DNA of 64,000 nt from Chloroflexota bacterium (GTDB taxonomy: Bacteria; Chloroflexota; Dehalococcoidia; UBA2247; RBG-13-53-26). The DNA lies in the NCBI GenBank assembly GCA_016875915.1, contig VGOM01000008.1:1-64000 (forward strand), written 5' to 3'. The notes beneath the pieces are model-generated. The model was given only the letters and a program-made list of their open reading frames with translations. It ran no database searches and was not told the origin of the DNA. Shown one piece after another: positions 12,457 through 24,984 of the stretch. Positions within the stretch are counted from its first letter, which is position 1. Every line of letters begins with the position of its first letter. Position numbers and translations under genes: made by a program.

Positions 12457-12729
12457 CTAGGTGTCCTCCCCGGAGGTTCGCTGTGTCACCAGCGGGGACT
12501 CCATAGCCGTGTCTGGGACGTCTGCATATGCCTTGGCCTCAAGTAGTGCTGGCTTGTTACGAGCCGGCGATCCCAGTGCACGCTTCGCCGTGGCCATGTG
12601 GGGGGGCTGGGTGGGGGAAGGGGAGTAGGTGCCGCCAATCCTGTGGTGCAGCCTGGCATTCTTTTCAAACGCGGCTATGACGTCCGGCGCAATTGAGTTC
12701 AGCATCGGCTTGCTCAGTGTTGCCGGCAC
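12457..12729 (-). CDS. Hypothetical 90-aa protein, GTG start, possible downstream member of the micro-ORF cluster
   Basis: GTG start preceded at about 7 nt by AAAGGG; no recognised motif. Confidence 0.3.
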   Translation of the reverse strand: MPATLSKPMLNSIAPDVIAAFEKNARLHHRIGGTYSPSPTQPPHMATAKRALGSPARNKPALLEAKAYADVPDTAMESPLVTQRTSGEDT

Positions 12730-12751
12730 CCATGAACCCTTTCTTGGAGAG

Positions 12752-12856
12752 CTAGCGCGACCAGATGAAGGTGTACACCAGGACCGTGGCCATGGCCATC
12801 AGCCTCAGCATACGGATGGAGAGATCAGCCCTGTGCGCCTTCACCAGGGTCTTCAT
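12752..12856 (-). CDS. Micro-ORF C, 34 aa: MKTLVKAHRADLSIRMLRLMAMATVLVYTFIWSR (basic N-terminus, hydrophobic C-terminus)
   Basis: ATG directly follows TAG of micro-ORF B in the same frame. Confidence 0.5.
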   Translation of the reverse strand: MKTLVKAHRADLSIRMLRLMAMATVLVYTFIWSR

Positions 12857-12970
12857 CTAGCGTGCGCTCTTCCGTGAGATTTTGCTCACCTTGGGCTGAA
12901 CCTTCCTGGTGACCTTGCGGCCAGCGGGGGCCACAGCCTTGGCTCTCTTCGTCTTAAGCGCCGTCTTCAT
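12857..12970 (-). CDS. Micro-ORF B, 37 aa: MKTALKTKRAKAVAPAGRKVTRKVQPKVSKISRKSAR (highly basic)
   Basis: ATG directly follows TAG of micro-ORF A in the same frame; 14 K/R and no D/E. Confidence 0.55.
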   Translation of the reverse strand: MKTALKTKRAKAVAPAGRKVTRKVQPKVSKISRKSAR

Positions 12971-13111
12971 CTACTTCTTGCCTCCCTTCTTCGCGGTCTT
13001 GCCTGCCATCTTCTTCGGCTGCACCTTGGCTACCGCCTTGCCCTTGGGGGCTGCTGCCTTGGCCTTGGGAGCGGCTGTGCGAGCCTTGGCCGTCTTCGCA
13101 ATAGTCTTCAT
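12971..13111 (-). CDS. Micro-ORF A, 46 aa: MKTIAKTAKARTAAPKAKAAAPKGKAVAKVQPKKMAGKTAKKGGKK (histone-H1-tail/KAP-like)
   Basis: Strong SD aaggaggtga upstream of ATG at 13111; Lys/Ala/Pro-rich, 16 K/R and no D/E. Confidence 0.65.
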   Translation of the reverse strand: MKTIAKTAKARTAAPKAKAAAPKGKAVAKVQPKKMAGKTAKKGGKK

Positions 13112-13269
13112 TCGTTGTCACCTCCTTTCTTCGAACGTTGATCATGAGTGTATACACGGTATCTCACGTCTGTGTCTCGCCCTGCGCCGCTTCACTCACC
13201 GTTTTCCCTCGCTGTTCCCGATGAGTGTCACCGATGGGTCACAGGCGATGCATGGACCTGTCGCACGTC

Positions 13270-13299
13270 TTGACAAGGCTCGTGGGGGTCGGTCACAAT
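13270..13299 (+). promoter_or_regulatory. Candidate sigma70-type promoter for prepilin peptidase
   Basis: TTGACA 13270-13275, 18-nt spacer, CACAAT 13294-13299. Confidence 0.35.
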
Positions 13300-13306
13300 T
13301 GGGCCC

Positions 13307-14089
13307 GTGCAGTCATTCGAGATAGCGCTTTTCGGGGTGCTCGGTCTGGCCCTGGGCAGCTTCCTCAATGTCTGCATCGACCGGCTGCCTGGGGGCCGGT
13401 CAATCGTCAAGCCGCCCTCCGAGTGCGACTCCTGCCACCGCCGCCTCTCGGCGGGCGATCTGATACCCCTGCTGAGCTACCTCTGGCTGCGCGGCCGCTG
13501 CCGCTACTGCCAGGCCGCCATTCCAAGGCGCGTCTTCGTGGTGGAACTGGTCACCGGGGCCGCCCTGGCCCTGCTCTGCTGGCGCTACGGCCTGACCGCC
13601 GAGTTCGGGGTCATCGGACTGTGGGCCGTGGTCTTCATCGTCGTCTTCTTCATTGACCTGGAGCAGGGCCTGATACTGAACGTGCTGGTCTATCCCGCCA
13701 TTGGGGTGGCCCTGCTTCTGGCCTGGCTGGTGGAGCCGCCGTGGCTGGAGGGCTGGGTGCTTGCCCCTGTGGTCAGCTCTGCGGTGGGCGGGGCAGTGGG
13801 ACTGGCCATGTTCTGGCTCATCGTGGTCTTCTCGCGCGGGGGCATGGGCTGGGGCGACGTGAAGCTGGCCGCCCTCATCGGGCTGATCTGCGGGTTCCCC
13901 CTGGTGCTGCTGGCCTTGATCCTGGGGGCGGTGCTGGGGGGACTGGCGGCGCTGGGTCTGCTCCTGGTCAGGCGGCGGCGCTGGGCCTCCGGTCAGACCA
14001 TACCCTTCGGACCGTCACTGGCCGTGGCCACCATGGCCACCATTCTTTGGGGCAGCGCCGTTGGCGACTGGTACCTGGATCTCCTCTAG
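13307..14089 (+). CDS. pilD: Prepilin peptidase (A24 family)
   Basis: 'GLALGSFLNVCIDRLP', CxxC pairs 'CDSCHRRLSAGDLIPLLSYLWLRGRCRYC', 'GMGWGDVKLAALIGL'. Confidence 0.93.
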   Translation: MQSFEIALFGVLGLALGSFLNVCIDRLPGGRSIVKPPSECDSCHRRLSAGDLIPLLSYLWLRGRCRYCQAAIPRRVFVVELVTGAALALLCWRYGLTAEFGVIGLWAVVFIVVFFIDLEQGLILNVLVYPAIGVALLLAWLVEPPWLEGWVLAPVVSSAVGGAVGLAMFWLIVVFSRGGMGWGDVKLAALIGLICGFPLVLLALILGAVLGGLAALGLLLVRRRRWASGQTIPFGPSLAVATMATILWGSAVGDWYLDLL

Positions 14090-20442: not shown

Positions 20443-21204
<762 letters not shown>

Positions 21205-21638
21205 TGTGCACCCTTTCCTGCAATCATTGTGCTCTGGCTTCCCAGTGTCAGGCCGGATACGGTGGCCAGGCCTGTTCCGCGGCCCCCGCCTCCATCCGGC
21301 TCCGGTCTGCCCCGGCCATCCGGGGATGTCCTTTTCTGAATTGTGCTCATTGTACTCGGGGTGGGTTACGCCCGTGTCTCAGGCGCCGTAGCTGCCCTCA
21401 CAAAAGGCATTCCGCCTCTCGGGGAAAGGTCACCGAAGTGTCTCAGACGGGGAGCCCGCCCCGCAGCGCGGTCTTGCGGCGGAAGCTGTCTTGGCCGAAG
21501 CAGGGAACGGGAATCGAATGGTGTTGTGCCGTCAGGTTCGGTTCCGCGTGGGTGTCAGGTCCCCGACATGACCTGCGACGCGGGGCAAGGGACGCCGTCA
21601 GGTCCGCTGCTGGCGAGTCATCCGCACGCCTTCTCGAT

Positions 21639-21667
21639 GTCATGCCGCACTTGATGCGGCATCCATG
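21639..21667. repeat. Module B hairpin repeat
   Basis: gtcatgccgcacttgatgcggcatccatg. Confidence 0.85.
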
Positions 21668-21700
21668 GGTGGCGGGGTGGTGTGGAGGCCCGTGCCGCCT

Positions 21701-22396
21701 TCAGGGCTTCTTGAAGGTGTAGCCTATTCCCGGCCTGGTGACGATGTACTTCGGACTGCCCGGGTCGTCGGCTATCTTCTTCCGCAGTCGGGCAACGGCC
21801 ACCTGCAGGATGTGGGTATCCCCGCAGTATTCCTGGCCCCAGATCTCGGTGAGAAGCTGGTCCTGGGTGATAGTCCGGCCGGCGTTGCGGGCCAGTAGGC
21901 ACAGGATGCGGTACTCGGTGGGGGTGAGGAGGACCTCATCCCCGTTGATGGTCACCTGGTGATGGCCGAAATCGATGAGCAGGTCGCCCGAGGCGAAGGG
22001 GGGCTGGGGCATGTCCTCGGGGAACTTGGCCCGGCGGAGCACGGCCCGGACGCGGGCCAGGAGCTCCTCGGTGCTGAAGGGCTTGACCACGTAGTCGTCA
22101 GCTCCGGCGGCCAGACCCTGGATCACGTCCTCGGTCCGGCCCTTGGCGGTCAACATGATCACGGGCACCTCGGAGAACTCGCGGATCCCCTGGCAGGTCT
22201 GGAAGCCGTCGATGCCGGGCATCATGATGTCGAGGATGACCAGCGTCGGCTGCTGGTTCTCCACAAGCTGGATGGCCGACTTGCCGTCGCGGGCGGTGAT
22301 CACCTGGTATGCCTCCAGCTCCAGGTTGAGGGTGACCAGCTTGAGGATCCCGGGATCGTCATCCACGACCAGAATCAGCGGCTTCCTATGGGGCAT
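21701..22396 (-). CDS. OmpR-family response regulator (paralogue of 20443..21204)
   Basis: 'ILVVDDDPGILKLV', 'ILDIMMPGIDGFQTC', winged helix 'YCGDTHILQVAVARLRKKIA'. Confidence 0.93.
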   Translation of the reverse strand: MPHRKPLILVVDDDPGILKLVTLNLELEAYQVITARDGKSAIQLVENQQPTLVILDIMMPGIDGFQTCQGIREFSEVPVIMLTAKGRTEDVIQGLAAGADDYVVKPFSTEELLARVRAVLRRAKFPEDMPQPPFASGDLLIDFGHHQVTINGDEVLLTPTEYRILCLLARNAGRTITQDQLLTEIWGQEYCGDTHILQVAVARLRKKIADDPGSPKYIVTRPGIGYTFKKP

Positions 22397-22467: not shown

Positions 22468-24984
22468 TCAGGCGTCACGGCTGTCGTCCGCCTGACCCGC
22501 AGCAGTGCTCTCCTGCAGTGGGATTGTAAAGGTGAAGGTGCTGCCTTTGCGCAGCGTGCTCTCGGCCCAGATGCGACCTCCATGGGCCTCTATTATACCC
22601 TTGCAGATAGCCAGACCCAAGCCCACGCCGCCGCCCCTCTGGGACACGCCGGACGAAGCCTGGTAGAAGCGGTCAAAGACCTTGTCCAGCTCTTCGGGAC
22701 TGATGCCCACGCCCTGGTCCGTGACCCGGACCACCAGTTCGCCGTCGCTGGAGGTGCATCCCACCGCGATGTCCGTGTTCTCCGGGGAGTACTTCACGGC
22801 GTTGCTCAGCAGGTTGTCCAGCACCTGCCGGATCCGCCGCGGGTCGGCTTCGACCAGAGGCAGGGGCTCGTCGTACCGGGTGACGAAGCGGCGGCCCTTG
22901 GTCTTCTGCTCCGCATCCTCGACGGCGTTGCTCAGCAGAGAGACCATCACCACCGGCTCCTTCTGCATGTGGAAGCCGCCGGCCTCGAGCTTGGAGAGCT
23001 GGAGCAGGTTTTCGATGAGCTCCGTCAGCCGGTCGCTGGCGATCTCGATCTCATGGAGGAAGTCCCGCTTCTCTGCGTCGGCCAGCCTGTCGAAGTGACG
23101 CAGTATGGTGGTGGTGTACCCCTTGATGGAGGTCAGGGGAGTACGCAGGTCGTGAGAGACATTGGCCAGCAGTTCCGTCTTCAGTCGGTCCGCCTCTCGC
23201 AGGGCGCCCACGGTGCTGGCCTCCTGGTACAGCCGGGCGTTCTCGATGGCTATGGCCGCCTCGTCGGCGAAGGCCACCAGCAGCTTCACCTTGCCGCTGA
23301 AGGCATGGCGCTTGGTGCTGTGGACGAACAGCACCCCGATGATGGTCTTCTTGGCTGCGATGGGCACGCCGGCGTAGGACTTGATCCCCGCCGCCAGGAG
23401 GATGGGGTTGGTCCCCTCCACCGTGTCCACGTCGTCAATGACCACGGGCTCTCCGCTCTTGATGATCTTCCTGGTTACTCCGTGCGGTCTGGCGCCGATG
23501 GGCGATGGCGTGATGTCCACTATTCTTCTGGGGGAACCCTTGGGCTTGGGCCGGGCGGACAGGGGGGCGATGCCCACGAACTCCTCGCTGCCGATGCCCA
23601 GACTGCCGTCCTCGTTGACCATCACAATGCTGGTGTAGTTGGACTCCAGCGCCGCGCCGACGTGGGACACGATCTCCGTCAGCACCTCATCGAGGTCCAG
23701 GGTCTGGGTGATCGAAGTAAGCACCTGGTGCAGGGCGGACAGCTCGCGGGTCCGCTGCAGGATCTCCTCCTCGGCCCGCTTGCGCTCGCTGATGTCCTTG
23801 GTCACGGCGATGAACCCCGTGGGCCGGCCCGACTTGTCGCGGAGCAGGGCCGTACTCAGCTCGGCGTGGACCTGCCTGTCGGCCCTTGTCAGGAGCAGGT
23901 ACTCGATGCTGCCGCTCCGGCCTTGCTCGTAGGCCCGCTCCATGGTCTGCATGACGCTGGCCCGGTCCCCGTCGGTGGCGTAGTCCAGGATCCTCTGGCC
24001 GATCAACTCCTCCTTCTGACGGCAGCCGTAGAGGGCGGCGGCCGCATCGTTGAGGCGGACGATGCTGCCACCCAGATCGGTGACTATTATCCCGTCGGCG
24101 ATGGACTCGAACATGGCCTGGAGCTTGCCTTCCGATTCCAGCAGTTCGTCTTCCATCTGCTTGCGCTCGGTCACATCCCGGAAGAAGCTGATGGTGCATT
24201 GTCGCTTGTTGATGATGGCCGTGGTGGCGCTGATGTCCACGTAAATGGTGGTCCTGTCCTTGGTCAGGCAGGGGATGTTGGCCGCCAGGGTCTTCCGGCC
24301 GGCGGCCTGGGCCTCCAGCTCTGACGATACGTGGGGCCATTCGTCCCGGGGATGAATGGCTGACCTGTCCATGCCCCGCAGCTCTTCCTGGCTGTAGCCC
24401 AGCAGCCTGCAGATGGCTGGATTGGCGTAGGTGAATCCGCCCGTCTCGTTGTCCAGGACCAGGATCCCTTCCTCTGCGGATTCGAACAGGGTGCGGTATC
24501 TCTCGTCTGAGTCCCGCGAGGCCCGCTCCAGGCGCTTCCGGTCGGTGACGTCGGCCACGCTGCCCAGCATGGCCTGTTTCTCCAGGAACTGGATGGCGGT
24601 GACTGCCTCCGTCACCCATCTGGTTTCCCCGCTCTTGGTGACCATGCGGTATTCGTAGGGAGCCAGGGATTCACCGTTGAGCATCATCAGGGCGTTCTCC
24701 TTGAACACCTCCCTGTCCTCCGGCATGACCAGCCTGAGGTAGTCCGTGCCCAGAAGCTCGTCCCGGCTGTGGCCCGTGAATGACTGAAACTGGCGGTTGA
24801 CGTACTGGAGGCAGCCGTCCTGGATGATGTAGATCCCGGTGGGGGTGATGCTGAAGACGCTGTCGAAGAGTTGCTGGGCCAGGTTGTAGCGGAGCTGCGG
24901 AGATGCCTTGAAGTCGGCGATACGCCGGCGGAGTAGCGCTATCCCTTCGCCGGGCGGCGCTGAAGCCTTGCGTTTCTCGCTCAT
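22468..24984 (-). CDS. Multi-PAS/GAF sensor histidine kinase
   Basis: Three PAS segments, GAF, 'LANVSHDLRTPLTSIKGY', 'DNLLSNAVKYSPENT', 'GGGVGLGLAICKGIIEAHGG'. Confidence 0.95.
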   Translation of the reverse strand: MSEKRKASAPPGEGIALLRRRIADFKASPQLRYNLAQQLFDSVFSITPTGIYIIQDGCLQYVNRQFQSFTGHSRDELLGTDYLRLVMPEDREVFKENALMMLNGESLAPYEYRMVTKSGETRWVTEAVTAIQFLEKQAMLGSVADVTDRKRLERASRDSDERYRTLFESAEEGILVLDNETGGFTYANPAICRLLGYSQEELRGMDRSAIHPRDEWPHVSSELEAQAAGRKTLAANIPCLTKDRTTIYVDISATTAIINKRQCTISFFRDVTERKQMEDELLESEGKLQAMFESIADGIIVTDLGGSIVRLNDAAAALYGCRQKEELIGQRILDYATDGDRASVMQTMERAYEQGRSGSIEYLLLTRADRQVHAELSTALLRDKSGRPTGFIAVTKDISERKRAEEEILQRTRELSALHQVLTSITQTLDLDEVLTEIVSHVGAALESNYTSIVMVNEDGSLGIGSEEFVGIAPLSARPKPKGSPRRIVDITPSPIGARPHGVTRKIIKSGEPVVIDDVDTVEGTNPILLAAGIKSYAGVPIAAKKTIIGVLFVHSTKRHAFSGKVKLLVAFADEAAIAIENARLYQEASTVGALREADRLKTELLANVSHDLRTPLTSIKGYTTTILRHFDRLADAEKRDFLHEIEIASDRLTELIENLLQLSKLEAGGFHMQKEPVVMVSLLSNAVEDAEQKTKGRRFVTRYDEPLPLVEADPRRIRQVLDNLLSNAVKYSPENTDIAVGCTSSDGELVVRVTDQGVGISPEELDKVFDRFYQASSGVSQRGGGVGLGLAICKGIIEAHGGRIWAESTLRKGSTFTFTIPLQESTAAGQADDSRDA

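Follow-up and report, generated by a model that had tools for sequence, protein, structure and literature searches.

A short minus-strand stretch of the window, by which we mean the whole 64,000-nucleotide piece of Chloroflexota DNA that was analyzed, carries a genuine, conserved tricistronic set of micro-genes, A, B and C, in which each stop codon is followed directly by the next start codon. Taken as a whole, the locus is best explained as a regulon-controlled A-B-C unit translated by reinitiation, with A and B as polycations resembling histone H1 tails and C as a membrane peptide, a reading to which we would give about even chances.

Three adjoining micro-genes are conserved within the genus

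Micro-ORF A (12971..13111, minus strand) starts at the ATG at 13111, encodes 46 aa rich in Lys, Ala and Pro (pI 11.7, net charge +16) and ends in TAG. B (12857..12970, minus strand) encodes a Lys/Arg-rich peptide of 37 aa (pI 12.0), and its ATG abuts the TAG of A, while C (12752..12856, minus strand) encodes 34 aa, basic at the head and hydrophobic in the C-terminal half, and its ATG abuts the TAG of B. The TAG-ATG junctions are located at 12971/12970 (A to B) and 12857/12856 (B to C), with 0 nt between stop and start. Translation of 12752-13111 reproduced the peptides of the original prediction together with their exact junctions, and the strong Shine-Dalgarno (SD) sequence that it had placed before A, AAAGGAGGTGA, was found at 13118-13128 (minus strand), with a gap of 9 nt from GGAGG to the ATG.

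We compared the locus of the window's genome (G000, a Chloroflexota MAG) with that of its congener Chloroflexi bacterium RBG_13_53_26 (G001), the sole named relative with the locus; these two species are the known carriers of the triplet. The congener retains the three ORFs in the same order, the two junctions and the AAAGGAGGT site ahead of A, and such a recurrence in the one other genome of the genus where the locus was found is more than chance. Assembly error is disfavored, since the locus is present in two independent assemblies. DNA identity between the two species was about 81% over A-B-C and 87% over the 124 bases that follow C, compared to 46% further on and 64% (with gaps) in the spacer between A and pilD, and the indels inside A-B-C were of 3 or 12 nt, all multiples of three. 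The dN/dS ratio was 0.09 for A (P<0.00025), 0.33 for B, 0.43 for C and 0.24 for the three jointly; taken singly, A alone was significant and B and C were not. When substitutions were placed at random in 5000 trials, the median dN/dS was 0.70, the low observed value was never reached and a new stop arose in 61%. The original prediction had been staked on the recurrence of the ORFs in close relatives and on a synonymous/nonsynonymous pattern of coding constraint, and it held on both counts. It had also dismissed an overlapping ORF call at 12954-13157 (minus strand) as spurious, and this frame indeed showed no coding constraint (dN/dS above 1). Its sequence motifs fared less evenly: the three peptides begin with MKT exactly as quoted, but this start is conserved for A only (MKT, MKI and MTA for A, B and C of the relative), and the KVQPK core common to A and B is present in the window's species, but that of B is absent from the relative.

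Searches of viral, plasmid and phage collections found no relatives of the locus, A, B and C matched neither Pfam nor any other family model, and Rfam returned no family for the window or the locus. The literature on the RBG_13_53_26 genome yielded nothing useful. Micro-genes below 50 codons usually escape annotation; here, conservation, junctions, promoter and regulon support A-B-C from sequence alone.

A single A-like gene in the sister genus

In the sister genus (G003, G008 and G009) we found a single A-like peptide of 27-28 aa, for example MKAVKKAKAAAPRKAAKAPAKKTGKGRR. Its gene follows the same promoter block as A and an AAAGGAGGT site, which precedes A or the A-like gene in each of the five locus-bearing genomes. 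The A-like gene is divergent from pilD, from which it lies about 1.5 kb away in G009, and in G003 and G009 it is followed directly on its 3' side by a terminator, consisting of a stem-loop and a T run. The divergent neighbor in the window is likewise a pilD-like prepilin peptidase of the A24 family (13307..14089, plus strand), an arrangement shared by G001, G003 and G008. No A-type locus was found in other genera of the family, and the DNA pattern was empty outside the sister genus among 394 genomes of the class. This pattern outperformed an A-type profile in finding the locus: the profile search, insensitive as homology searches with low-complexity sequences are, recovered the two known copies only and missed the sister-genus peptides. 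As the sister genus has an A-like peptide only, behind the same promoter block, the A-type gene would be the older core unit, and B and C would be additions made in the window's genus.

The duplication of a unit, as originally proposed, is weakly supported for A and B, whose peptides are more similar than composition-matched shuffles (P about 0.001), but whose DNA is not at codon level (P 0.10). The likeness of C to A and B is confined to its first ten residues and to the window's species.

A promoter box shared with a candidate regulator

Upstream of A lies a promoter/operator array (13147..13210, minus strand) with GWGA-type half-sites at -32, -21, 0 (GAGACAC) and +11 (GTGA), followed by a -10-like TACACT. 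The block GAGACACNNNNGTGA-N11-TANACT precedes A or its counterpart in all five locus-bearing genomes, in G009 as the variant GAGACACG. In the form GAGACAC-N4-GTGA-N11-TANACT, with GWGA half-sites phased by 11/21 bp, the box was found at 9 sites in G000 compared to 1 for the reversed pattern, and it recurs elsewhere in the family. It is nearly confined to this one family, with two stray matches outside the order among 57 sampled genomes. Among 31 collected sites, the bases outside the searched pattern contained GWGA at -21 in 26, at -32 in 13 and at -53 in 12, compared to an average of 1.3 per offset; the -21 offset was absent from every search pattern used for the box. Direct repeats in helical phase that extend as far as the -35 region typify activators of the OmpR/PhoB family. 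The array is a candidate for a new response-regulator box, with a regulon in an uncultured Chloroflexota family; the literature gave no useful parallel for it.

Two copies of the box (21349-21380 and 21413-21444, minus strand) precede a response regulator, and the window holds three matches against 0.16 expected. This OmpR-family protein (20443..21204, minus strand; Response_reg and Trans_reg_C) is a candidate controller of the A-B-C promoter. The box is located 100-180 bp upstream of the orthologous regulator genes in G001, G007, G008 and G009, which makes five genomes with the window's. The regulator is one of two tandem OmpR-type paralogues (20443-22396, minus strand; 71% identical), the other of which (21701-22396) has no box upstream. 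A PAS/GAF histidine kinase (22468..24984, minus strand) adjoins both and is a candidate partner by position. In G000, G001, G003 and G009 a close regulator homologue and the micro-gene lie at most about 8 kb apart on one contig. About ten genes in G000 are preceded by the box, the OmpR-type regulator included; named from sequence by eye, their other products include an M20-like peptidase, sensors carrying PAS-like domains, a secreted beta-helix-like protein whose gene has the box in both G000 and G001, and a coiled-coil-like protein with the box in both G000 and G002. The marks of an OmpR/PhoB-type regulon were found, namely a receiver with Trans_reg_C and phased direct repeats upstream of the -10 in several promoters, the regulator's own among them.

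The presence of the box before A and before the regulator and its orthologues suggests that A-B-C probably belong to an autoregulated regulon under the control of the two-component regulator about 7 kb away; the link from regulator to box draws on position and conservation. In the mechanism that we propose, one promoter would drive A-B-C along with the gene of the regulator itself and about ten further genes, and an OmpR-type regulator, most likely that at 20443-21204, would act through the GWGA direct repeats, which have an 11-bp phase and overlap the -35 region. The earlier reading of this DNA had included neither the promoter box nor the window's response regulator.

Two other features of the window were observed. 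A short palindromic stretch, CCGCATCAAGTGCGG, is located at about 21640-21662 (minus strand), with a similar one at about 2165-2190 of L002; it is intergenic in both species and has the look of a dispersed small repeat. The segment 4320-5678 (plus strand) encodes a TackOD1 domain fused to an Mrr-type nuclease domain.

A and B resemble histone H1 tails in composition

Lys and Arg make up 35-38% of A and B, and the composition of the two (Lys/Ala/Pro-rich and Lys/Arg-rich, respectively, with pI near 12) bears out the likeness to histone H1 or KAP tails that was first seen in them. PAKK and KAAK motifs mark the tails of HupB and H1 (PMC5676037); in the sister-genus peptides PAKK is present in 3 of 3 and KAAK in 2 of 3, and A contains neither in exact form. 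A and B are most likely inducible, nucleic-acid-binding microproteins of the H1-tail kind. As freestanding polycations like the H1 and HupB tails, they would bind DNA or RNA once the regulon is switched on and alter how it is packed or how accessible it is.

HU (PF00216) was undetected in all 15 genomes of the order, with control genomes positive. In the class, HU was missing in 94 of 118 genomes and found in 24, and most of the HU-less ones were without an A-like peptide. The absence of HU as a specific link to the peptides is weakened, since most of the class lacks it, and serves as context, not proof. A, B and C themselves gave no Pfam match that would place them in the HU/HupB family, and the literature on HU-less Chloroflexi provided nothing useful. 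That, in an HU-less order, a two-component system switches on freestanding H1-tail-like micropeptides with linked yields, as a form of inducible chromatin packing, is a tentative proposal that we consider unlikely on balance. A-B-C offer a concrete test of detached histone-like tails as regulated nucleoid proteins where HU is not found.

The main rival to action on DNA, and a distinctly unlikely one, is that the peptides act on the ribosome or on RNA as small basic ribosome-associated proteins. Their size, charge and very strong SD would suit small ribosomal proteins as readily as chromatin tails; however, a signaling-type regulon and a limit to two genera misfit a core ribosomal part, and no ribosomal family was matched.

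A conserved block follows C

The best conserved stretch of the locus, above the micro-ORFs themselves, is a block of about 124 bases after C (12627..12751, minus strand; 1924-2049 in L002), whose end coincides with the 3' arm of a hairpin stem of 8 bp, GGGTGCCG...CGGCACCT, that encloses about 90 nt of loop. For an ORF that opens at the ATG at 12705, the dN/dS across 27 codons was 0.26 (P 0.007), but this ORF lacks an SD and becomes divergent past the hairpin. Folding scores were weak (z -1.1 and -2.3), Rfam did not match the block and Pfam found nothing in its ORF. Short matches to the block in G008, G034 and G037 were rejected as chance-like, as they lie inside genes that read like ClpB. The block is possibly an RNA element, a terminator or a fourth micro-ORF.

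Its conservation and its end at a hairpin arm would suit micro-ORFs that serve mainly as a regulatory leader, their translation controlling the block as a terminator, RNA element or small ORF. We regard this as quite improbable: A is under strong constraint at the amino-acid level (dN/dS 0.09), the two sequences contain no compensatory changes in the post-C stem, and the block is missing from the sister genus, where the A-like gene runs directly into a terminator in two genomes.

C may be a membrane peptide

The original description of C as basic and then hydrophobic applies to both species, which keep the basic head and the hydrophobic C-terminal half. C is most likely a membrane micropeptide, and would form part of the same regulon response. 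A short, basic and hydrophobic peptide would also fit a membrane-active role for C, and perhaps for A and B, for example within a toxin-antitoxin pair or a bacteriocin-like set, but antitoxin, immunity and export genes are absent beside the locus, no phage or plasmid relatives were found and the chromosomal site beside pilD is stable; to this role we give a slim chance.

Coding strand and junctions

An antisense ORF (12909-13325, plus strand) would encode a hydrophobic protein, of which A and B would be the shadow. The mirror frame has a dN/dS of 0.25, equal to that of the sense frame, and antisense ORFs are present in both species. As this ratio is equal, we base the choice of strand on the conserved SD, promoter and sister-genus terminators, which point in the sense direction, and on codon scoring, which favors sense for A and B; moreover, the part of the antisense ORF beyond A extends into the spacer, where conservation is poor (64%, gaps included). 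These features make the antisense reading very improbable.

Published tests have shown reinitiation at stop-start pairs that adjoin or overlap slightly, with distance being critical (PMC10666635, PMC12548453). At both junctions of A-B-C, stop and ATG are kept in two species, adjacent and conserved as in translational coupling. The sequence GGGAGG (12981..12986, minus strand), a candidate internal SD within A, is located 10 nt 5' of the ATG of B and is identical in G001. TAG terminates 17 of the 43 long ORFs of the window and is an ordinary stop here; no tRNA genes were found in the window. Stop-start reinitiation is the best reading of the junctions: ribosomes would enter A through its strong SD, terminate at its TAG and re-initiate at the adjoining ATG of B, aided by the in-gene GGGAGG, with a second restart at C, and the coupled restarts would link the yields of the three peptides. 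To the alternative first raised, a single 119-aa protein made by TAG readthrough, we give next to no weight: the frame is open through both TAGs as predicted, but such continuity is automatic at 0-nt junctions and no independent evidence, readthrough has no need for the ATGs that are kept at both, GGAGG precedes the ATG of B, TAG is in common use as a stop, and the sister genus stops after its A-like peptide, with a terminator next in two genomes.

Comparison with known systems

The C-terminal tail of mycobacterial HupB/MDP1 and histones H1/H5 (PMC5676037) are likewise Lys/Ala/Pro-rich with pI near 12 and share PAKK/KAAK with the sister-genus peptides, whereas the peptides described here are freestanding, 27-47 aa long and without an HU domain; composition alone allows no claim of homology. 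Like translationally coupled pairs (PMC10666635, PMC12548453), A-B-C have adjacent stops and starts at a distance within the reinitiating range, and a common transcript is expected, but they join by 0-nt TAG-ATG junctions instead of the commonest ATGA/TGATG overlaps, with three micro-genes in a row. The candidate regulator shares with OmpR/PhoB systems a receiver with Trans_reg_C, direct repeats of 11-bp phase into the -35 region and a box at its own gene. In contrast to these systems, the box GWGA...GAGACAC-N4-GTGA is without a match to a known regulon and the array extends to -53; the regulator scored below every NCBIfam equivalog cut-off among those shown, the best being MtrA (231.9 of 300 bits). 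Chlamydia Hc1/Hc2 and Bordetella BpH1 are examples of freestanding basic, Lys/Ala-rich, H1-like bacterial proteins, a description that also fits the composition of A and B; compared to them, A-B-C match no family model, are much shorter and form three stop-start coupled cistrons.
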